Shown: positions 35,244-56,320 of the stretch, in pieces | Numbering within the stretch: the stretch's first letter is position 1 | Layout: every line of letters begins with the position of its first letter | Source: Streptomyces hiroshimensis | GTDB lineage: Bacteria; Actinomycetota; Actinomycetes; Streptomycetales; Streptomycetaceae | Direction of reading: 5' to 3' | Assembly: GCF_014650335.1 (NCBI RefSeq) | Contig: NZ_BMUT01000021.1 | Span: 1 to 64,000, forward strand | Length of the DNA stretch: 64,000 bases | The notes under the pieces: model-generated | The model's database searches: none | What the model saw: only the letters and a program-made list of their open reading frames with translations | What the model was told of the DNA's origin: nothing | Position numbers and translations under genes: made by a program

Positions 35244-36521
35244 TCACGCCTTCGGCGCCACCCGGCTCAGCCCGTTGATGATGCGGTCCATCGCGTCCCC
35301 GCCCTGCGGGTCCGTCAGGTTCGCCAGCATCTTCAGCGTGAACTTCATCAGCAGCGGGTGCGTCAGGCCGTGCTGGGCGCCGATCTTCATCACCTTCGGG
35401 TTGCCGATGAGCTTCACGAAGGCCCGGCCGAGCGTGTAGTAGCCGCCGTAGGTGTCCTTGAGGACCTTCGGGTAGCGCTGCAGGGCCAGCTCGCGCTGGG
35501 CGTACGAAGCGCGCGCGTGGGCCTGGACGATGACGTCCGCGGCGATCTGCCCGGACTCCATGGCGTACGCGATGCCCTCGCCGTTGAACGGGTTCACGAG
35601 CCCGCCCGCGTCGCCGACCAGCAGCAGGCCGCGCGTGTAGTGCGGCTGGCGGTTGAAGGCCATGGGCAGGGCGGCGCCGCGGATCGGGCCGGTCATGTTC
35701 TCCGGGGTGTAGCCCCAGTCCTCGGGCATCGAGGCGCACCAGGCCTTGAGGACCTCGCGCCAGTCCAGCTCCTTGAAGGACTCGGAGGTGTTGAGCACGC
35801 CGAGACCGACGTTGCTCGTGCCGTCGCCCATGCCGAAGATCCAGCCGTAGCCGGGCAGCAGCCGGTCCTTCGGGCCGCGCCGGTCCCACAGCTCCAGCCA
35901 GGACTCCAGGTAGTCGTCGTCGTGGCGCGGGGAGGTGAAGTACGTGCGCACGGCCACGCCCATGGGGCGGTCCTCGCGGCGGTGCAGGCCCATGCCCAGC
36001 GACAGCCGGGAGGAGTTGCCGTCGGCGGCGACGACGAGCGGGGCGCGGAAGGTGACCGGGGTCTTCTCCTCGCCGAGCTTCGCCTCGACGCCCACGATCC
36101 GGCCCGTGCGGTCGTCGATGACGGGCGCGCCGACGTTGCAGCGCTCGTACATCCGGGCGCCGGCCTTGACCGCGTTACGGGCCAGCTGCTCGTCGAAGTC
36201 GTCGCGCTTGCGGACCAGTCCGTAGTCCGGGAAGGAGGCGAGATCCGGCCAGTCGAGCTGCAGCCGGACGCCGCCGCCGATGATGCGCAGGCCCTTGTTG
36301 CGCAGCCAGCCCGCCTCCTCGGAGATGTCGATGCCCATCGCCACGAGCTGCTTGGTGGCGCGGGGCGTGAGGCCGTCGCCGCACACCTTCTCGCGCGGGA
36401 ACGCCGTCTTCTCCAGGAGGAGGACGTCCAGTCCGGCCTTGGCGAGGTAGTAGGCGGTGGTCGACCCGGCCGGGCCGGCCCCGACGACGATCACATCCGC
36501 GGAGTGTTCGGTATCGGTCAC
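35244..36521 (-). CDS. Geranylgeranyl reductase family FAD oxidoreductase, probable menaquinone side-chain reductase
   Basis: A 425-residue flavoprotein. GAGPAG (14-19) is the FAD fingerprint; EKVCGDGLTPRA (about 45-56) and GDAGGLVNPFNGEGIAYAM (about 290) are hallmarks of geranylgeranyl-reductase proteins such as MenJ of mycobacteria, which saturates a double bond of the menaquinone side chain. Streptomycetes make partly hydrogenated MK-9, and this gene lies two genes from menG. A MenJ-like role is therefore likely, but reduction of other isoprenoids is possible. GTG start at 36521. Confidence 0.75.
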   Translation of the reverse strand: MTDTEHSADVIVVGAGPAGSTTAYYLAKAGLDVLLLEKTAFPREKVCGDGLTPRATKQLVAMGIDISEEAGWLRNKGLRIIGGGVRLQLDWPDLASFPDYGLVRKRDDFDEQLARNAVKAGARMYERCNVGAPVIDDRTGRIVGVEAKLGEEKTPVTFRAPLVVAADGNSSRLSLGMGLHRREDRPMGVAVRTYFTSPRHDDDYLESWLELWDRRGPKDRLLPGYGWIFGMGDGTSNVGLGVLNTSESFKELDWREVLKAWCASMPEDWGYTPENMTGPIRGAALPMAFNRQPHYTRGLLLVGDAGGLVNPFNGEGIAYAMESGQIAADVIVQAHARASYAQRELALQRYPKVLKDTYGGYYTLGRAFVKLIGNPKVMKIGAQHGLTHPLLMKFTLKMLANLTDPQGGDAMDRIINGLSRVAPKA

Positions 36522-36614: not shown

Positions 36615-37958
36615 TCAGCCGGAAGCCCGCGAGCCCGCCTTCCAGGAGCCGAGCGCGGCGTCGAAGGGCTTCCGGGTGGAGTCCCCTTCGTCCCGGCCGG
36701 CGAACATGATGGCGTACTCGGTGCCCGAAGCGTCCACGTACGCCTGGTTGTAGGCGCGCATGGTGCGGCCGGTGGACTTCTCGGTCCAGGTCCACTCCCA
36801 CAGCGCGCCCGGCCGGCCCTGGAAGGTGTTCCGCGTCAACGAGACCCGCCGGTAGCCGTTCTGTCCCGCCCCGCCCTTCTCCAGCTCCGTGAAGTGGTCG
36901 TACGGCGCCTGCTTGGTGTCGTGCACGATGCCGATCCGCAGGTGCTCGGGGCCCGAGCCGCCCGCGTAGTCGATCTGGCCGCTCCCCTTGTCCTCCCGGC
37001 GCCACCCCTTGGGCACCGCGAGGGAGAACCCCTCCGGGGCGGACACGTTCTCGTAGCCCGCGGGCGCGGGGCCGCCGGCCGCCTCGGGCGCCGACGACGA
37101 CGCGGACGGCGACGGCGAGGCCGAGGCGGACTCGGAGGCGGACGGGGACGGCGACGCGGAGGCCGACGGGGACGCGGAGGCCGAGGCGGACGGCGACGGG
37201 GAGGACGAGGCGCTGGGCGCCGCCTTCGTCGGCGTCGGCCCGACGGGCTCGGCGTCCTCGACACGGGCGGTGTCCTGCTTGCCGCGGTCCTTGCCCTGCG
37301 TGAGCAGAATCCCACCGCCCACAGCCCCGCCGATCACCACGACCGCCACGGCGGCCGCCACCCAGCCGAGGTTGAGCCTGCGGCGGGCCTTGGGGAGCAC
37401 GAAGAACTCGGGGGTGGGGCCGATGACCGCGAGCGGGGTCGCCTCCGGCGCGGGCGGGGCGGTACGGCCCGGCGCGGCACCGGCCTTCGGCCCGGGCGGG
37501 GCCGGGGGCGCGGCCGGAATGGCGGCGGTGGCGGCGGTGGCCGCGGTCCAGGACGCGGGGGGAGGCGGGAGGACGGGGCTCGCCTGGGGCGCGGGCGGGG
37601 CCACGGGGGCCGCGGGAGCCGCGGGCGGCGGGGCAGGCGCTGCCGGAGCAGGGGCCACGGGGGCCGGAACCGGGGCCGCGGGAGCCGGAGCCGGGGGCGC
37701 GGGAGCCGGAGCCGGAGCCGGGGGCGCGGCGGCCGGGGACGCCGGGGCCGCCTGGGGCGCGGGCGGCGGGGCAGCGGCGCCCGCGGCCGTGCCCGGAGCC
37801 GGCGGGGTGGCCGGCTTGTCCGGTATCGGCGGGGTCCCCGCCGCGCCCGGCGCCGCGGCCGGTTCCGTCTCCTGGGGCCGTGCCCGCCCGCACTTCATGC
37901 AGAAGCGCGCTTCCGCGGGGAACGGGGAACCGCAATCGGGGCAGCAGGGCAAGGTCAT
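36615..37958 (-). CDS. Zinc-ribbon membrane protein with Pro/Ala-rich linker and extracellular domain
   Basis: A 447-residue protein. The N-terminus is a cytoplasmic zinc ribbon (Cys6-x2-Cys9, Cys20-x2-Cys23). Residues about 35-185 are almost only Pro and Ala. One transmembrane helix (about 205-227, LGWVAAAVAVVVIGGAVGGGILL) follows, then a Ser/Ala-rich spacer and a C-terminal domain (about 300-447) starting GYENVSAPEGFSLAVPKGW. That domain resembles the extracellular parts of actinobacterial Ser/Thr kinases. Function unknown; a sensor or cell-wall scaffold is conceivable. ATG at 37958. Confidence 0.65.
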   Translation of the reverse strand: MTLPCCPDCGSPFPAEARFCMKCGRARPQETEPAAAPGAAGTPPIPDKPATPPAPGTAAGAAAPPPAPQAAPASPAAAPPAPAPAPAPPAPAPAAPVPAPVAPAPAAPAPPPAAPAAPVAPPAPQASPVLPPPPASWTAATAATAAIPAAPPAPPGPKAGAAPGRTAPPAPEATPLAVIGPTPEFFVLPKARRRLNLGWVAAAVAVVVIGGAVGGGILLTQGKDRGKQDTARVEDAEPVGPTPTKAAPSASSSPSPSASASASPSASASPSPSASESASASPSPSASSSAPEAAGGPAPAGYENVSAPEGFSLAVPKGWRREDKGSGQIDYAGGSGPEHLRIGIVHDTKQAPYDHFTELEKGGAGQNGYRRVSLTRNTFQGRPGALWEWTWTEKSTGRTMRAYNQAYVDASGTEYAIMFAGRDEGDSTRKPFDAALGSWKAGSRASG

Positions 37959-38106: not shown

Positions 38107-38805
38107 TCACTCCGGCAGCTTGGTCCCCCGGTGCAGGGCGACGACGCCGCCCGTGAGGTTGCGCCACGCGACCTTCGACCAGCCCGCCTCCTGCAGCAGC
38201 GCGGCGAGCTCCGGCTGGTCCGGCCAGGCGCGGATCGACTCGGCGAGGTAGACGTACGCGTCGGGGCTGCTGCTGACGGCCCGCGCGACCGGCGGCAGGG
38301 CCCGCATCAGGTACTCGCTGTAGACCGTGCGGAAGGGCGCCCACGTGGGCGTGGAGAACTCGCAGATCACCACGCGGCCGCCGGGCCGGGTCACCCGCAG
38401 CATCTCGCGCAGCGCGGCGACGGTGTCCTGCACGTTGCGCAGCCCGAAGGAGATCGTGACGGCGTCGAACACCCCGTCCGCGAACGGCAGCCGGGTGGCG
38501 TCGCCCGCGGTCAGCGGCATCCACGGGTTGCGCTTCTTGCCCTCGCGCAGCATGCCGACCGAGAAGTCGCACGGCACGACGTACGCACCGGCCATGGTGA
38601 ACGGCAGCGACGAGGTGCCCGTCCCGGCCGCGAGGTCCAGCACCTTCTCCCCCGGGCGGGCGTCAACGGCCCGGGCGACGGCCTTGCGCCACAGACGGGC
38701 CTGGCCGAGCGAGAGCACGTCGTTGGTGAGGTCGTATTTGGCCGCCACGTCGTCGAACATCGCGGCGACTTCGTGCGGCTGCTTGTCCAGGGATGCTCGG
38801 GTCAC
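38107..38805 (-). CDS. menG: Demethylmenaquinone methyltransferase
   Basis: A 232-residue UbiE/MenG-type SAM-dependent methyltransferase. [18 protein letters not shown] (about 17-34) is the family N-terminus, [11 protein letters not shown] (55-65) binds SAM, and [10 protein letters not shown] is the UbiE signature. It adds the ring methyl group in the last ring-modification step of menaquinone. The GTG at 38805 gives the usual MTRASLDK start; another GTG five codons upstream is possible. The side-chain reductase gene is two genes downstream. Confidence 0.93.
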
Positions 38806-39187
38806 GCCCCCATTGTTCACCCCCGGGGCGGGAGAGGACGCAGAGGGTTGGACGGGGAGGCCCGGACGGGAGACGGGAAGGACTGGACGGGGACGGCGCG
38901 CCCGGGAAGGACCGGCCGTCCTGCGGTGCCGACTGCGCTCGTCCCGGGAGCCCCCGCTCCCCGGGACCGCCGGACCCCCCGCCCGGCGTTGCGCGCCCTT
39001 GCGGCCCGGCGTACCGAAACCGTTGCCAGGGCCCTCCACAGTGGCACCGCGGGACGCCCGTAGCGGCCGTCCCCGCGCTGCCCATCCTGCCCCGCGGAAC
39101 GGACCGGGATCTTCCGTCTTGACGGGCCCCTGACGTGCGTAAACGTTCTCCATACGGCCCGTTGACGCCTGCGCGCGGCGCCTGCGC
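38806..39187. other. Gap upstream of menG
   Basis: 382 bp without a supportable gene. It contains several GGACGGG-like words near 38850-38900, the presumed menG promoter, which I cannot place, and at its right end half of the 13-bp duplication at the amidohydrolase-like stop. Confidence 0.4.
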
Positions 39188-39191
39188 TCAA
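39166..39191 (-). repeat. 13-bp tandem duplication at the amidohydrolase-like stop
   Basis: Plus-strand CGCCTGCGCGCGG (39166-39178) and CGCCTGCGCTCAA (39179-39191) agree at 10 of 13 bases. The TGA stop (39188-39190) lies in the second. This is the weakest case of the stop-associated repeats. Confidence 0.55.
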
Positions 39192-39844
39192 CGCCGCCGG
39201 TACACCAGCCGCCCCGCGAGCACCGTCGCCACGCACGTCCCCGCGCCCGCCTCCAGCAGGGCGGCTTCGTCCGGCACGTCGAAGACGGCGAAGTCGGCGC
39301 GCCCGCCGACCGCCAGCGGCTCCGCGAAGGCGACCGCCGGATCGGAGACGCCCCGCAAGGGGTCGAGACCGGGCTCGTCCACCGGGACCCCCGGCGTCCA
39401 CGCCGCCGAGACGAACCTCAGCCCCGAGCGGGCGAGGGCGGTGCTCGTCGCGGGATCGTCGAAACAGCTGCCGGCCACGGCCGTGGTGCCGTGCCGCAGC
39501 ATCTGCTGGATCCCCCGGCGGACACTGCCCGCCCACCGGGTCTCGCTCATCTCCAGGGCCGCCAGGCGCTCGCCGGTCAGCGGCCGGTCGCCCAGCTCGT
39601 CGTACTCCCGCGGATCGGGGTGGTAGCAGCGCTCCAGGAGCCGTTTCGCGTACCACTGCCGCAGCCCCGGCGCCAGCACCCCCGGCCAGCGCCGCTCGCG
39701 CGCCCGCGGAAAGGCCGCGGCCACATCCTCGTACGGGCCGATCGCCGCGATCGCGTCACCGTCCACCACCACGGCGCCGCCGGGCACGGGAGCCGCGCCC
39801 GGGGCAGCCGTCAGCAGCAGGCCGGCCGTGTGCAGGGTCAGCAA
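39188..39844 (-). CDS. Truncated amidohydrolase-like protein downstream of mqnC
   Basis: A 218-residue protein with the ends of an amidohydrolase/imidazolonepropionase-like enzyme: an N-terminal small beta domain ([19 protein letters not shown]), then [14 protein letters not shown], and a C-terminal [37 protein letters not shown]. The HxH metal motif that normally follows the PG in such enzymes is missing, and the protein is about half the usual length. It starts with TTG 7 bp after the mqnC stop, so it is in the mqnC operon. It could be a degenerate aminofutalosine-deaminase relative or a protein with a new role. Confidence 0.65.
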
Positions 39845-39851
39845 AGCGGCG

Positions 39852-41063
39852 TCAGCTCGCGTCGATGAGCTTCAGCTCGGGGTGGGCCGTACCGCCCTCG
39901 ATCGCCGTCGACGACAGGTGCGAGACGACGCGGTCGTCGACCGGGTCGTTCGCCGGGTCGTCGTGCACGAGCAGGTGCTCGTACGTCGTCGCGCGCTGCG
40001 CCGGGACGCGGCCCGCCTTGCGGATGAGGTCGATGAGCTCCATGCGGTTGGAGCGGTGCTTGGCGCCGGCCGAGGAGACGACGTTCTCCTCCAGCATCAC
40101 CGAGCCCAGGTCGTCCGCGCCGTAGTGCAGCGAGAGCTGGCCCGCCTCCTTGCCGACGGTCAGCCAGGAGCCCTGGATGTGGGCGACGTTGTCCAGGAAC
40201 AGCCGCGCGACGGCGATCATCCGCAGGTACTCGAAGACGGTCGCCTGCGTACGGCCCTTCAGCACGTTGTTCTGCGGCTGGTAGGTGTACGGGATGAAGG
40301 CGCGGAAGCCGCCCGTGCGGTCCTGCACGTCACGGATCATCCGGATGTGCTCGATCCGCTCGGCGTTGGTCTCGCCGGTGCCCATCAGCATGGTGGAGGT
40401 CGACTCGACGCCCAGGGTGTGGGCGAGCTCCATGATCTCCAGCCAGCGCTCGCCGGACTCCTTCAGCGGCGCGATGGCCTTGCGGGGCCGCGCGGGCAGG
40501 AGTTCGGCGCCGGCGCCCGCGAAGGAGTCCAGGCCCGCGGCGTGGATGCGGCGGATGGCCTCCTCCGCGCTCACCCCGGAGATCCGCGCCATGTGCTCCA
40601 CCTCGGACGCGCCGAGGGAGTGGATCACCAGCTGCGGGAACTCCTTCTTGATGGCCGCGAAGTGCTCCTCGTAGTACTCCACGCCGTAGTCCGGGTGGTG
40701 GCCGCCCTGGAACATGATCTGCGTGCCGCCGAGCTCCACGGTCTCCGCGCAGCGGCGCAGGATGTCGTCGAGGGGGCGCGTCCAGACCTTGTCGCTCTTC
40801 GGCGGGGCGTAGAAGGCGCAGAACTTGCACGCCGTGACACACGAGTTCGTGTAGTTGATGTTGCGCTCGATGATGTACGTCGCGATGTGCTCGGTACCCG
40901 CGTAGCGCTTGCGGCGCGCCGCGTCGGCCGCCGCGCCGAGGGCGTGCAGCGGTGCGGAGCGGTAGAGCTCCAGGGCCTCCTCGGGAGTGATGCGGCCACC
41001 GGCGGCGGCGCGGTCGAGGACGGCTGTGACATCAATGGTCGTGAGGTCGGCCTTCTCGCTCAC
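39852..41063 (-). CDS. mqnC: Cyclic dehypoxanthine futalosine synthase (radical SAM)
   Basis: A 403-residue radical-SAM enzyme that cyclises dehypoxanthine futalosine in the futalosine pathway of menaquinone synthesis. Cys75-x3-Cys79-x2-Cys82 binds the [4Fe-4S] cluster (NSCVTACKFC). TQIMFQGGHHPDYGVEYYE and the C-terminal GSVMLEENVVSSAG are typical of MqnC. The GTG at 41063 (MSEKADLT) is chosen because AAGGGA precedes it; an in-frame GTG ten codons upstream (41093) has no ribosome site. It lies 52 bp behind a Ser/Thr kinase gene and directly before the amidohydrolase-like gene. Confidence 0.94.
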   Translation of the reverse strand: MSEKADLTTIDVTAVLDRAAAGGRITPEEALELYRSAPLHALGAAADAARRKRYAGTEHIATYIIERNINYTNSCVTACKFCAFYAPPKSDKVWTRPLDDILRRCAETVELGGTQIMFQGGHHPDYGVEYYEEHFAAIKKEFPQLVIHSLGASEVEHMARISGVSAEEAIRRIHAAGLDSFAGAGAELLPARPRKAIAPLKESGERWLEIMELAHTLGVESTSTMLMGTGETNAERIEHIRMIRDVQDRTGGFRAFIPYTYQPQNNVLKGRTQATVFEYLRMIAVARLFLDNVAHIQGSWLTVGKEAGQLSLHYGADDLGSVMLEENVVSSAGAKHRSNRMELIDLIRKAGRVPAQRATTYEHLLVHDDPANDPVDDRVVSHLSSTAIEGGTAHPELKLIDAS

Positions 41064-41115
41064 CGGGGCGTCCCTTCGGAGGGGGTTTGACACGACCGTC
41101 AGCCTACGCCAGCCC

Positions 41116-43986: not shown

Positions 43987-44919
<933 letters not shown>

Positions 44920-55156: not shown

Positions 55157-56320
55157 TCAGAGGCGCATCGCCTGCGGCGATTCGCGCAGCGAGGCGTCCG
55201 GGCCGGGGTACTCGCGGATGATCTCGTACCGGGTGTTGCGCTCGACCGGGCGGAAGCCCGCCTCGCGGATCAGCTCCAGCAGATCGTCACGGGTGAGCTT
55301 GTTGGGCGTGCCGTAGTTGTCCGCATCGTGCGTGATCTTGTACTCGACGACCGAGCCGTCCATGTCGTCCGCACCGTGCTGCAGCGCGAGCTGCGCGGTC
55401 TGCACGCCGTGCATCACCCAGAACACCTTGACGTGCGGCACGTTGTCGAACAGCAGCCGCGAGACCGCGAAGGTCTTCAGCGCCTCGGCGCCCGTCGCCA
55501 TCGTCGTCCGGGCCTGCAGGCGGTTACGGACCTTGCCGTCCTTCATGTCCACGAAGTCGTGCTGGTAGCGCAGCGGGATGAAGACGTGGAAGCCGCCGGT
55601 CTCGTCCTGCAGCTCACGCAGCCGCAGGACGTGGTCGACGCGGTGGCGCGGCTCCTCGATGTGCCCGTAGAGCATGGTCGCCGGGCCCTTGAGGCCCTTG
55701 GAGTGCGCCAGGCGGTGGATGCGCGACCAGTCCTCCCAGTGGGTGTCGTGGTCGACGATGTGCTGGCGGACCTCCCAGTCGAAGATCTCCGCGCCGCCGC
55801 CGGTCAGCGACTCCAGACCGGCGTCGATCAGCTCGTCGAGGATCTCGTCGGCCGGCAGGCCGGAGATCTTCTCGAAGTGCTGGATCTCGGTGGCGGTGAA
55901 GGCCTTCAGCGAGACGTTCGGCAGCGCCTCCTTGAGGGCCTTCAGCGAGCGCGGGTAGTAGCGCCAGGGCAGCGTCGGGTGCAGACCGTTGACGATGTGC
56001 AGCTCGGTGAGGTTCTCGCTCTCCATCGCCTTCGCGAGGCGCACGGCCTCCTCGATGCGCATCGTGTACGCGTCCTTCTCGCCCGGCTTGCGCTGGAACG
56101 AGCAGTACGCGCACGACGCCGTGCACACGTTCGTCATGTTCAGATGACGGTTGACGTTGAAGTGGACGACGTCGCCGTTCTTCTGCGTGCGGACGTGGTG
56201 GGCGAGCCCGCCCAGCCAGGCCAGGTCGTCGGACTCGTAGAGGGCGATGCCGTCCTCACGGGTCAGCCGCTCCCCGGCGAGGACCTTCTCCTCCAGCTCG
56301 CGCTTGAGCCCCGCGTCCAT
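55157..56320 (-). CDS. mqnE: Aminofutalosine synthase (radical SAM)
   Basis: A 387-residue radical-SAM enzyme that joins 3-enolpyruvylbenzoate and SAM into 6-amino-6-deoxyfutalosine, the second step of the futalosine pathway. Cys66-x3-Cys70-x2-Cys73 binds the cluster (NVCTASCAYCSF). HIVNGLHPTLPWRYY and the C-terminal DGSVVEYKITHDADNY are typical of MqnE. ATG at 56320. A Lrp-type regulator gene ends 51 bp upstream on the same strand. Confidence 0.95.
   Translation of the reverse strand: MDAGLKRELEEKVLAGERLTREDGIALYESDDLAWLGGLAHHVRTQKNGDVVHFNVNRHLNMTNVCTASCAYCSFQRKPGEKDAYTMRIEEAVRLAKAMESENLTELHIVNGLHPTLPWRYYPRSLKALKEALPNVSLKAFTATEIQHFEKISGLPADEILDELIDAGLESLTGGGAEIFDWEVRQHIVDHDTHWEDWSRIHRLAHSKGLKGPATMLYGHIEEPRHRVDHVLRLRELQDETGGFHVFIPLRYQHDFVDMKDGKVRNRLQARTTMATGAEALKTFAVSRLLFDNVPHVKVFWVMHGVQTAQLALQHGADDMDGSVVEYKITHDADNYGTPNKLTRDDLLELIREAGFRPVERNTRYEIIREYPGPDASLRESPQAMRL

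Follow-up and report, generated by a model that had tools for sequence, protein, structure and literature searches.

A barrel-less amidohydrolase remnant behind mqnC in Streptomyces hiroshimensis, probably descended from a displaced aminofutalosine deaminase

The window analyzed here, a stretch of 64,000 nucleotides of Streptomyces hiroshimensis DNA, raises the question of what a gene of 218 codons with a TTG start, located 7 bp beyond the stop codon of mqnC, encodes, and why it is there. A sequence-only reading had described a product of 218 residues with both ends of an amidohydrolase fold and no HxH motif, and had proposed that, since the futalosine pathway needs a deaminase that in some organisms is an amidohydrolase, it could be a relic or a helper of MqnC. 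The spacing and length are borne out by the coordinates (39188-39844(-) for the gene and 39852-41093(-) for mqnC). Genes mqnC, menG, mqnA and mqnE all lie within the window, which is therefore a menaquinone gene region. The features concerned are as follows.

38107..38850, minus strand: menG/ubiE, demethylmenaquinone methyltransferase, the next pathway gene downstream of the remnant (NF001241, 414 bits against 327)
39188..39844, minus strand: barrel-less amidohydrolase remnant, 218 aa, TTG start
39191..39304, minus strand: C-terminal part of the remnant, aa 181-218, second beta-sandwich half (family conservation; match to the full-length orthologue L038)
39587..39625, minus strand: motif at aa 74-86, family YHPDPREADELG, at the former HxH place, conserved in mid-length forms only
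39659..39844, minus strand: N-terminal part of the remnant, aa 1-62, first beta-sandwich half, with strands 2-6, 23-28, 31-37, 49-52 and 56-58 in the AlphaFold2 model; PF22039
39845..39851, no strand: 7 bp gap between mqnC and the remnant, no clear Shine-Dalgarno sequence seen
39852..41093, minus strand: mqnC, cyclic dehypoxanthinyl futalosine synthase (TIGR03699, 451.1 bits against a cut-off of 428.1)
44011..44910, minus strand: mqnA-type gene (VitK2_biosynth, PF02621)
55217..56293, minus strand: mqnE, aminofutalosine synthase (TIGR03700, above cut-off)

Two further genes lie close to menG. The geranylgeranyl-reductase-like flavoprotein encoded at 35244-36521(-) has the menaquinone reductase MenJ as its top specific model, far under the cut-off (249 of 700 bits), and is likely another menaquinone gene. 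Between it and menG, the gene at 36615-37958(-) encodes an N-terminal zinc-ribbon-like CxxC pair and a long Pro/Ala-rich stretch.

The remnant protein exceeds the cut-off of a single model in sequence-only library searches, PF22039 (HUTI_composite_bact; 30.6 bits against 25.5, aa 23-48), whose 26-residue domain carries no functional annotation and which its full-length relatives also match above cut-off. Amidohydro_1 and Amidohydro_3 of Pfam match solely under their cut-offs, nothing in NCBIfam comes near a cut-off, and the protein is absent from the matches of the aminofutalosine deaminase model NF006269 (cut-off 320 bits). The top PDB sequence match is DR_0824 (E 0.008), which we take to be a 6-aminodeoxyfutalosine deaminase; DR_0824, Nis_0429 and Acel_0264 were reportedly identified as such by Goble and colleagues in 2013. 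The decisive clues came from full-length orthologues. They are 36-40% identical to the window protein over the shared parts, and one of them, L038, aligns with it in two pieces (query 23-160, 42% identity, E 2e-20; query 393-432, 65%, E 5e-9) with no significant match between them. Approximately 190 barrel residues are missing between aa 179 and 180 of the window protein, which thus has no eight-stranded barrel, and the beta-5 H/E, beta-6 H and beta-8 D of amidohydrolases fall within the deleted segment. The HxH motif is not present, which places the protein outside the catalytic amidohydrolases. The single histidine, H75, may be the old second histidine of HxH displaced by an insertion, in a region where the alignment is ambiguous. 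The PF22039 match, the two pieces of L038 and the deleted metal sites agree with the earlier description of two amidohydrolase ends lacking HxH.

A structural comparison with aminofutalosine deaminases had been suggested, and it returned an amidohydrolase-type fold. The AlphaFold2 model, for which 11 short relatives and 5 full ones were aligned, has a pLDDT of 90.7 and a pTM of 0.88. VIA-align superposes 201 of its 218 residues on 4dzh (Z 16.4, rmsd 2.8, range 1-218 against 13-423) and 189 residues on the Helicobacter pylori aminofutalosine deaminase 7lkj (Z 15.7, rmsd 3.5), and both alignments span both ends of the full enzymes. The best 50 Foldseek matches listed were amidohydrolase-type enzymes throughout, as judged by their titles and general knowledge. 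With short relatives alone the pLDDT was 71 and the C-terminal part was not placed; because confidence drops in this way without the full-length rows, the closed sandwich is in part an argument from homology. A profile of the short forms alone gave no significant PDB match. The predicted structure is a two-ended composite beta-sandwich plus the opening two or three units of the barrel, a cog0402-like amidohydrolase fold.

The remnant is one of a series of size classes. A match to the remnant or the amidohydrolase was found in 40 of 41 genomes (its own and relatives), as short frames within the genus and, in other families of the order, as frames of about 420-440 aa with HxH intact; in some of the family's other genera, as well as beyond the family, the place after mqnC is taken by the full-length amidohydrolase. 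Within the family, 124 of 150 genomes have a match. Sorting loci from part of the matching genomes by what follows mqnC gives full forms of 414-443 aa, mid forms of 166-242 aa (51, including that of the window) and mini forms of 135-153 aa (22), with L034, which contains N, left out. HxH is disrupted and the other metal sites are deleted in all 51 mid and all 22 mini forms and are present in all 16 aligned full forms, while both sandwich ends are kept in full, mid and mini forms alike. Motif YHPDPREADELG is common to the mid forms, is not in the full forms and is lost from the mini forms. Carriers of the short form include Streptomyces griseus, S. monashensis, S. massasporeus and S. iakyrus. 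Dozens of species have the frame behind mqnC, a recurrence that is more than chance, and it starts -1 to 101 bp past mqnC in 72 of 72 scored cases (median 7).

Among 24 family genomes with no match or a weak one, a count that leaves out 6 further family genomes without a match, 17 have no such gene after mqnC, 6 have a mini form and 1, at a contig end, is undecided; the automatic label "ABSENT", with 19 rows, also takes in that truncated locus (L174) as well as L185, where mqnC is present as a second copy. The gene is missing in 17 of 24 genomes and is therefore dispensable. That second mqnC copy, on G056:C2, is followed by an apparent ABC transporter ATPase, and the other copy in the same genome (L180) by a mini form. 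The amidohydrolase of Streptomyces and its kin shrank in frame to the mid form, then to the mini form, or vanished. The mini forms need 13 changes on the MqnC tree, which was made by a quick method and is weakly resolved, and this number may reflect several separate shrinkages or the poor resolution of the tree.

Full-length orthologues tie the gene to the futalosine pathway. HxH, HxHxAE, HxxHxxH and GTDS occur in 27 of 27 full-form loci at at least 58% identity, including all 7 loci examined from the 8 full-form family genomes. Among 246 genomes of the class, MqnC is present in 57, the full amidohydrolase in 11 and both in 9, and in all 9 the amidohydrolase follows mqnC on the same strand at a distance of 25 bp to 1.1 kb; MqnC was not found, at the threshold used, in 2 of the 11. 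Genomes of genus g3, which we take to be Catenulispora-type, have the full amidohydrolase at a distance of 3.6-4.2 kb from mqnC whenever one stretch covers both genes. Searched against the PDB, the full form hits DR_0824 best (1.3e-30; 3.9e-41 in a second search), with 7lkj ranking lower. All full forms scanned miss the NF006269 cut-off (115-140 against 320 bits). MqnB is above cut-off in 32 of 33 genomes, with all states sampled, and the futalosine branch, which needs a deaminase, is therefore general. In G054 the full amidohydrolase is present and no MqnB over the cut-off was found. A genome of the same genus, G013, encodes a second MqnC (G013:C1:8053354-8054532, 89% to that of the window) and a second MqnB (G013:C1:7988631-7989368) some 65 kb apart, perhaps as part of a naphthoquinone product cluster.

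A search of the S. hiroshimensis genome for a separate deaminase, also suggested earlier, found a candidate: an adenosine-deaminase-like gene (G000:C5:78563-79528), alongside MqnE and MqnB. Orthologues at 73-100% identity are present in 142 of 150 family genomes, and the 8 without one, of which one has a 47% paralogue only, coincide exactly with the 8 that carry the full amidohydrolase; this count covers one adenosine-deaminase-like paralogue, and the exclusivity may not be specific to it. The full-form family genomes group together on the MqnC tree, so a single switch could give the whole 8 versus 142 pattern. In a tree of 40 adenosine-deaminase-like proteins, the candidate forms a clade with proteins of other genus members and of the Catenulispora-type genomes, a clade that from recall and map distance we assume to be the Sav2595 type; G025, G028, G032, G033 and G035, which have the amidohydrolase only, have no member in it. 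The Catenulispora-type genomes (genus g3; L092, L040 (G026)) carry both genes, apparently a transitional state in which old and new enzyme coexist. Since class genomes lacking MqnC likewise encode homologues of the proposed replacement, its sequence is by itself no marker of the pathway, and the NCBIfam models do not separate the adenosine-deaminase-like paralogues, every one being named adenosine deaminase. Descent of the window gene from an amidohydrolase-type aminofutalosine deaminase is well supported. For its displacement, the reaction presumably having been taken over by the adenosine-deaminase-like candidate, speaks the mutual exclusion of the two genes in the family (8/8 versus 142/142).

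The shortened gene is still under selection. Across all nine groups, each of 5-8 related sequences, the dN/dS of the remnant lies at 0.12-0.20 (0.11-0.19 when kappa is fitted), whereas the same codons give 1.06-3.66 if read out of frame or on the opposite strand. The encoded protein therefore matters. Segment-wise values, rough because they come from 31-117 codons, are also low, except for the N-terminal fit of one group, which stuck at its start value of 1. The mqnC control gave 0.02-0.09, four of these values being weak (two groups with 133-136 codons only; g19 and mini_g8 with implausible tree lengths). There was no loss of purifying selection of the kind that marks a pseudogene: the remnant is under purifying selection and is less constrained than MqnC.

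We consider it likely that the remnant descended from a displaced amidohydrolase-type deaminase and was kept as a small non-catalytic protein of the futalosine pathway. The ancestor would have been a cog0402 amidohydrolase-type aminofutalosine deaminase encoded immediately behind mqnC. On the branch that gave rise to Streptomyces and its relatives, deamination would have passed to the unrelated adenosine-deaminase-like enzyme encoded elsewhere, and the old gene would have lost most of its barrel and its metal site in frame, yet been kept. Its present product would be the composite beta-sandwich together with two or three units from the start of the barrel, presumably non-catalytic. Binding is the likely mode of action because no catalytic machinery remains, and by analogy with dead amidohydrolase subunits the protein may serve the pathway as a partner that helps in assembly, lends stability or hands on substrate. 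More tentatively, the beta-sandwich of a stepwise-stripped enzyme could have acquired a new role in the futalosine pathway, as a non-catalytic subunit or regulator, with its gene retained beside mqnC in the greater part of the Streptomyces family.

A narrower version of the non-catalytic protein, with which its probability overlaps, is a dedicated partner that aids MqnC stability or substrate uptake, and we regard it as possible but less likely than not. The constant position of the 72 short forms and the purifying selection are consistent with it, and pseudo-dihydroorotase provides a precedent (PMC7053772), but the position may be merely inherited and mqnC persists where the remnant gene is lost. 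The MqnC proteins of L033 and L134 are 99.3% identical, whereas their short proteins, of 148 and 220 aa, are 46% identical, a contrast that hints at a recombination event between mqnC and its downstream neighbour. Over 2628 pairs, the rank correlation between MqnC and short-protein pairwise identity is only 0.13. The earlier idea of a helper of MqnC is possible and fits the position of the gene, with some results arguing against a tight pairing of the two proteins.

That the remnant is a decaying, functionless relic awaiting deletion is unlikely. Stepwise shrinkage from about 425 through about 210 to about 145 aa, its loss in the genomes described above and its fast change relative to MqnC are what decay would produce; the low dN/dS in every group, the conservation of a new motif and the near absence of internal stops speak against it. 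"Relic" therefore holds for descent from an amidohydrolase-type aminofutalosine deaminase, which position, orthologues, DR_0824 and fold support, and fails for decay. An origin from another amidohydrolase unconnected to futalosine, such as imidazolonepropionase or 8-oxoguanine deaminase, is suggested by the Pfam label of PF22039 and by the top NCBIfam score of the full forms (8-oxoguanine deaminase, 150-159 bits against 532 needed), and is made very improbable by the way the full forms track MqnC and by DR_0824 being their closest PDB relative. Least probable of all is that the stump has turned into a new enzyme whose active site lies around YHPDPRE, a motif near-invariant in the mid forms (Y74, D77 and P78 in 51 of 51) and absent from the full forms, since the 135-153 aa forms are under similar selection without the motif and its helix.

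The series from full through mid and mini to lost would then be a stepwise record of what remains of an enzyme after displacement by an unrelated one, with the remnant still selected. It flags a small conserved protein in the menaquinone (vitamin K2) pathway of a large and well-used bacterial group, Streptomyces and its kin; we found no paper on this protein in the open-licence literature.

Like the amidohydrolase-type deaminases (DR_0824, Nis_0429, Acel_0264 and 7lkj), the remnant has both ends of the fold, and its orthologues sit after mqnC; unlike them, it has no metal site and lacks about 190 barrel residues, which makes the known deamination mechanism impossible. The adenosine-deaminase-like (cog1816) protein G000:C5:78563-79528 is the proposed catalyst of this deamination in S. 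hiroshimensis, but belongs to a different family and is encoded elsewhere. The nearest precedent is the pseudo-dihydroorotase needed by Pseudomonas aspartate transcarbamoylase (PMC7053772), like the remnant a catalytically dead amidohydrolase kept in a biosynthetic pathway. Pseudo-dihydroorotase is a chain of 45 kDa whose partner is proven, whereas the remnant is barrel-less and its partner putative.
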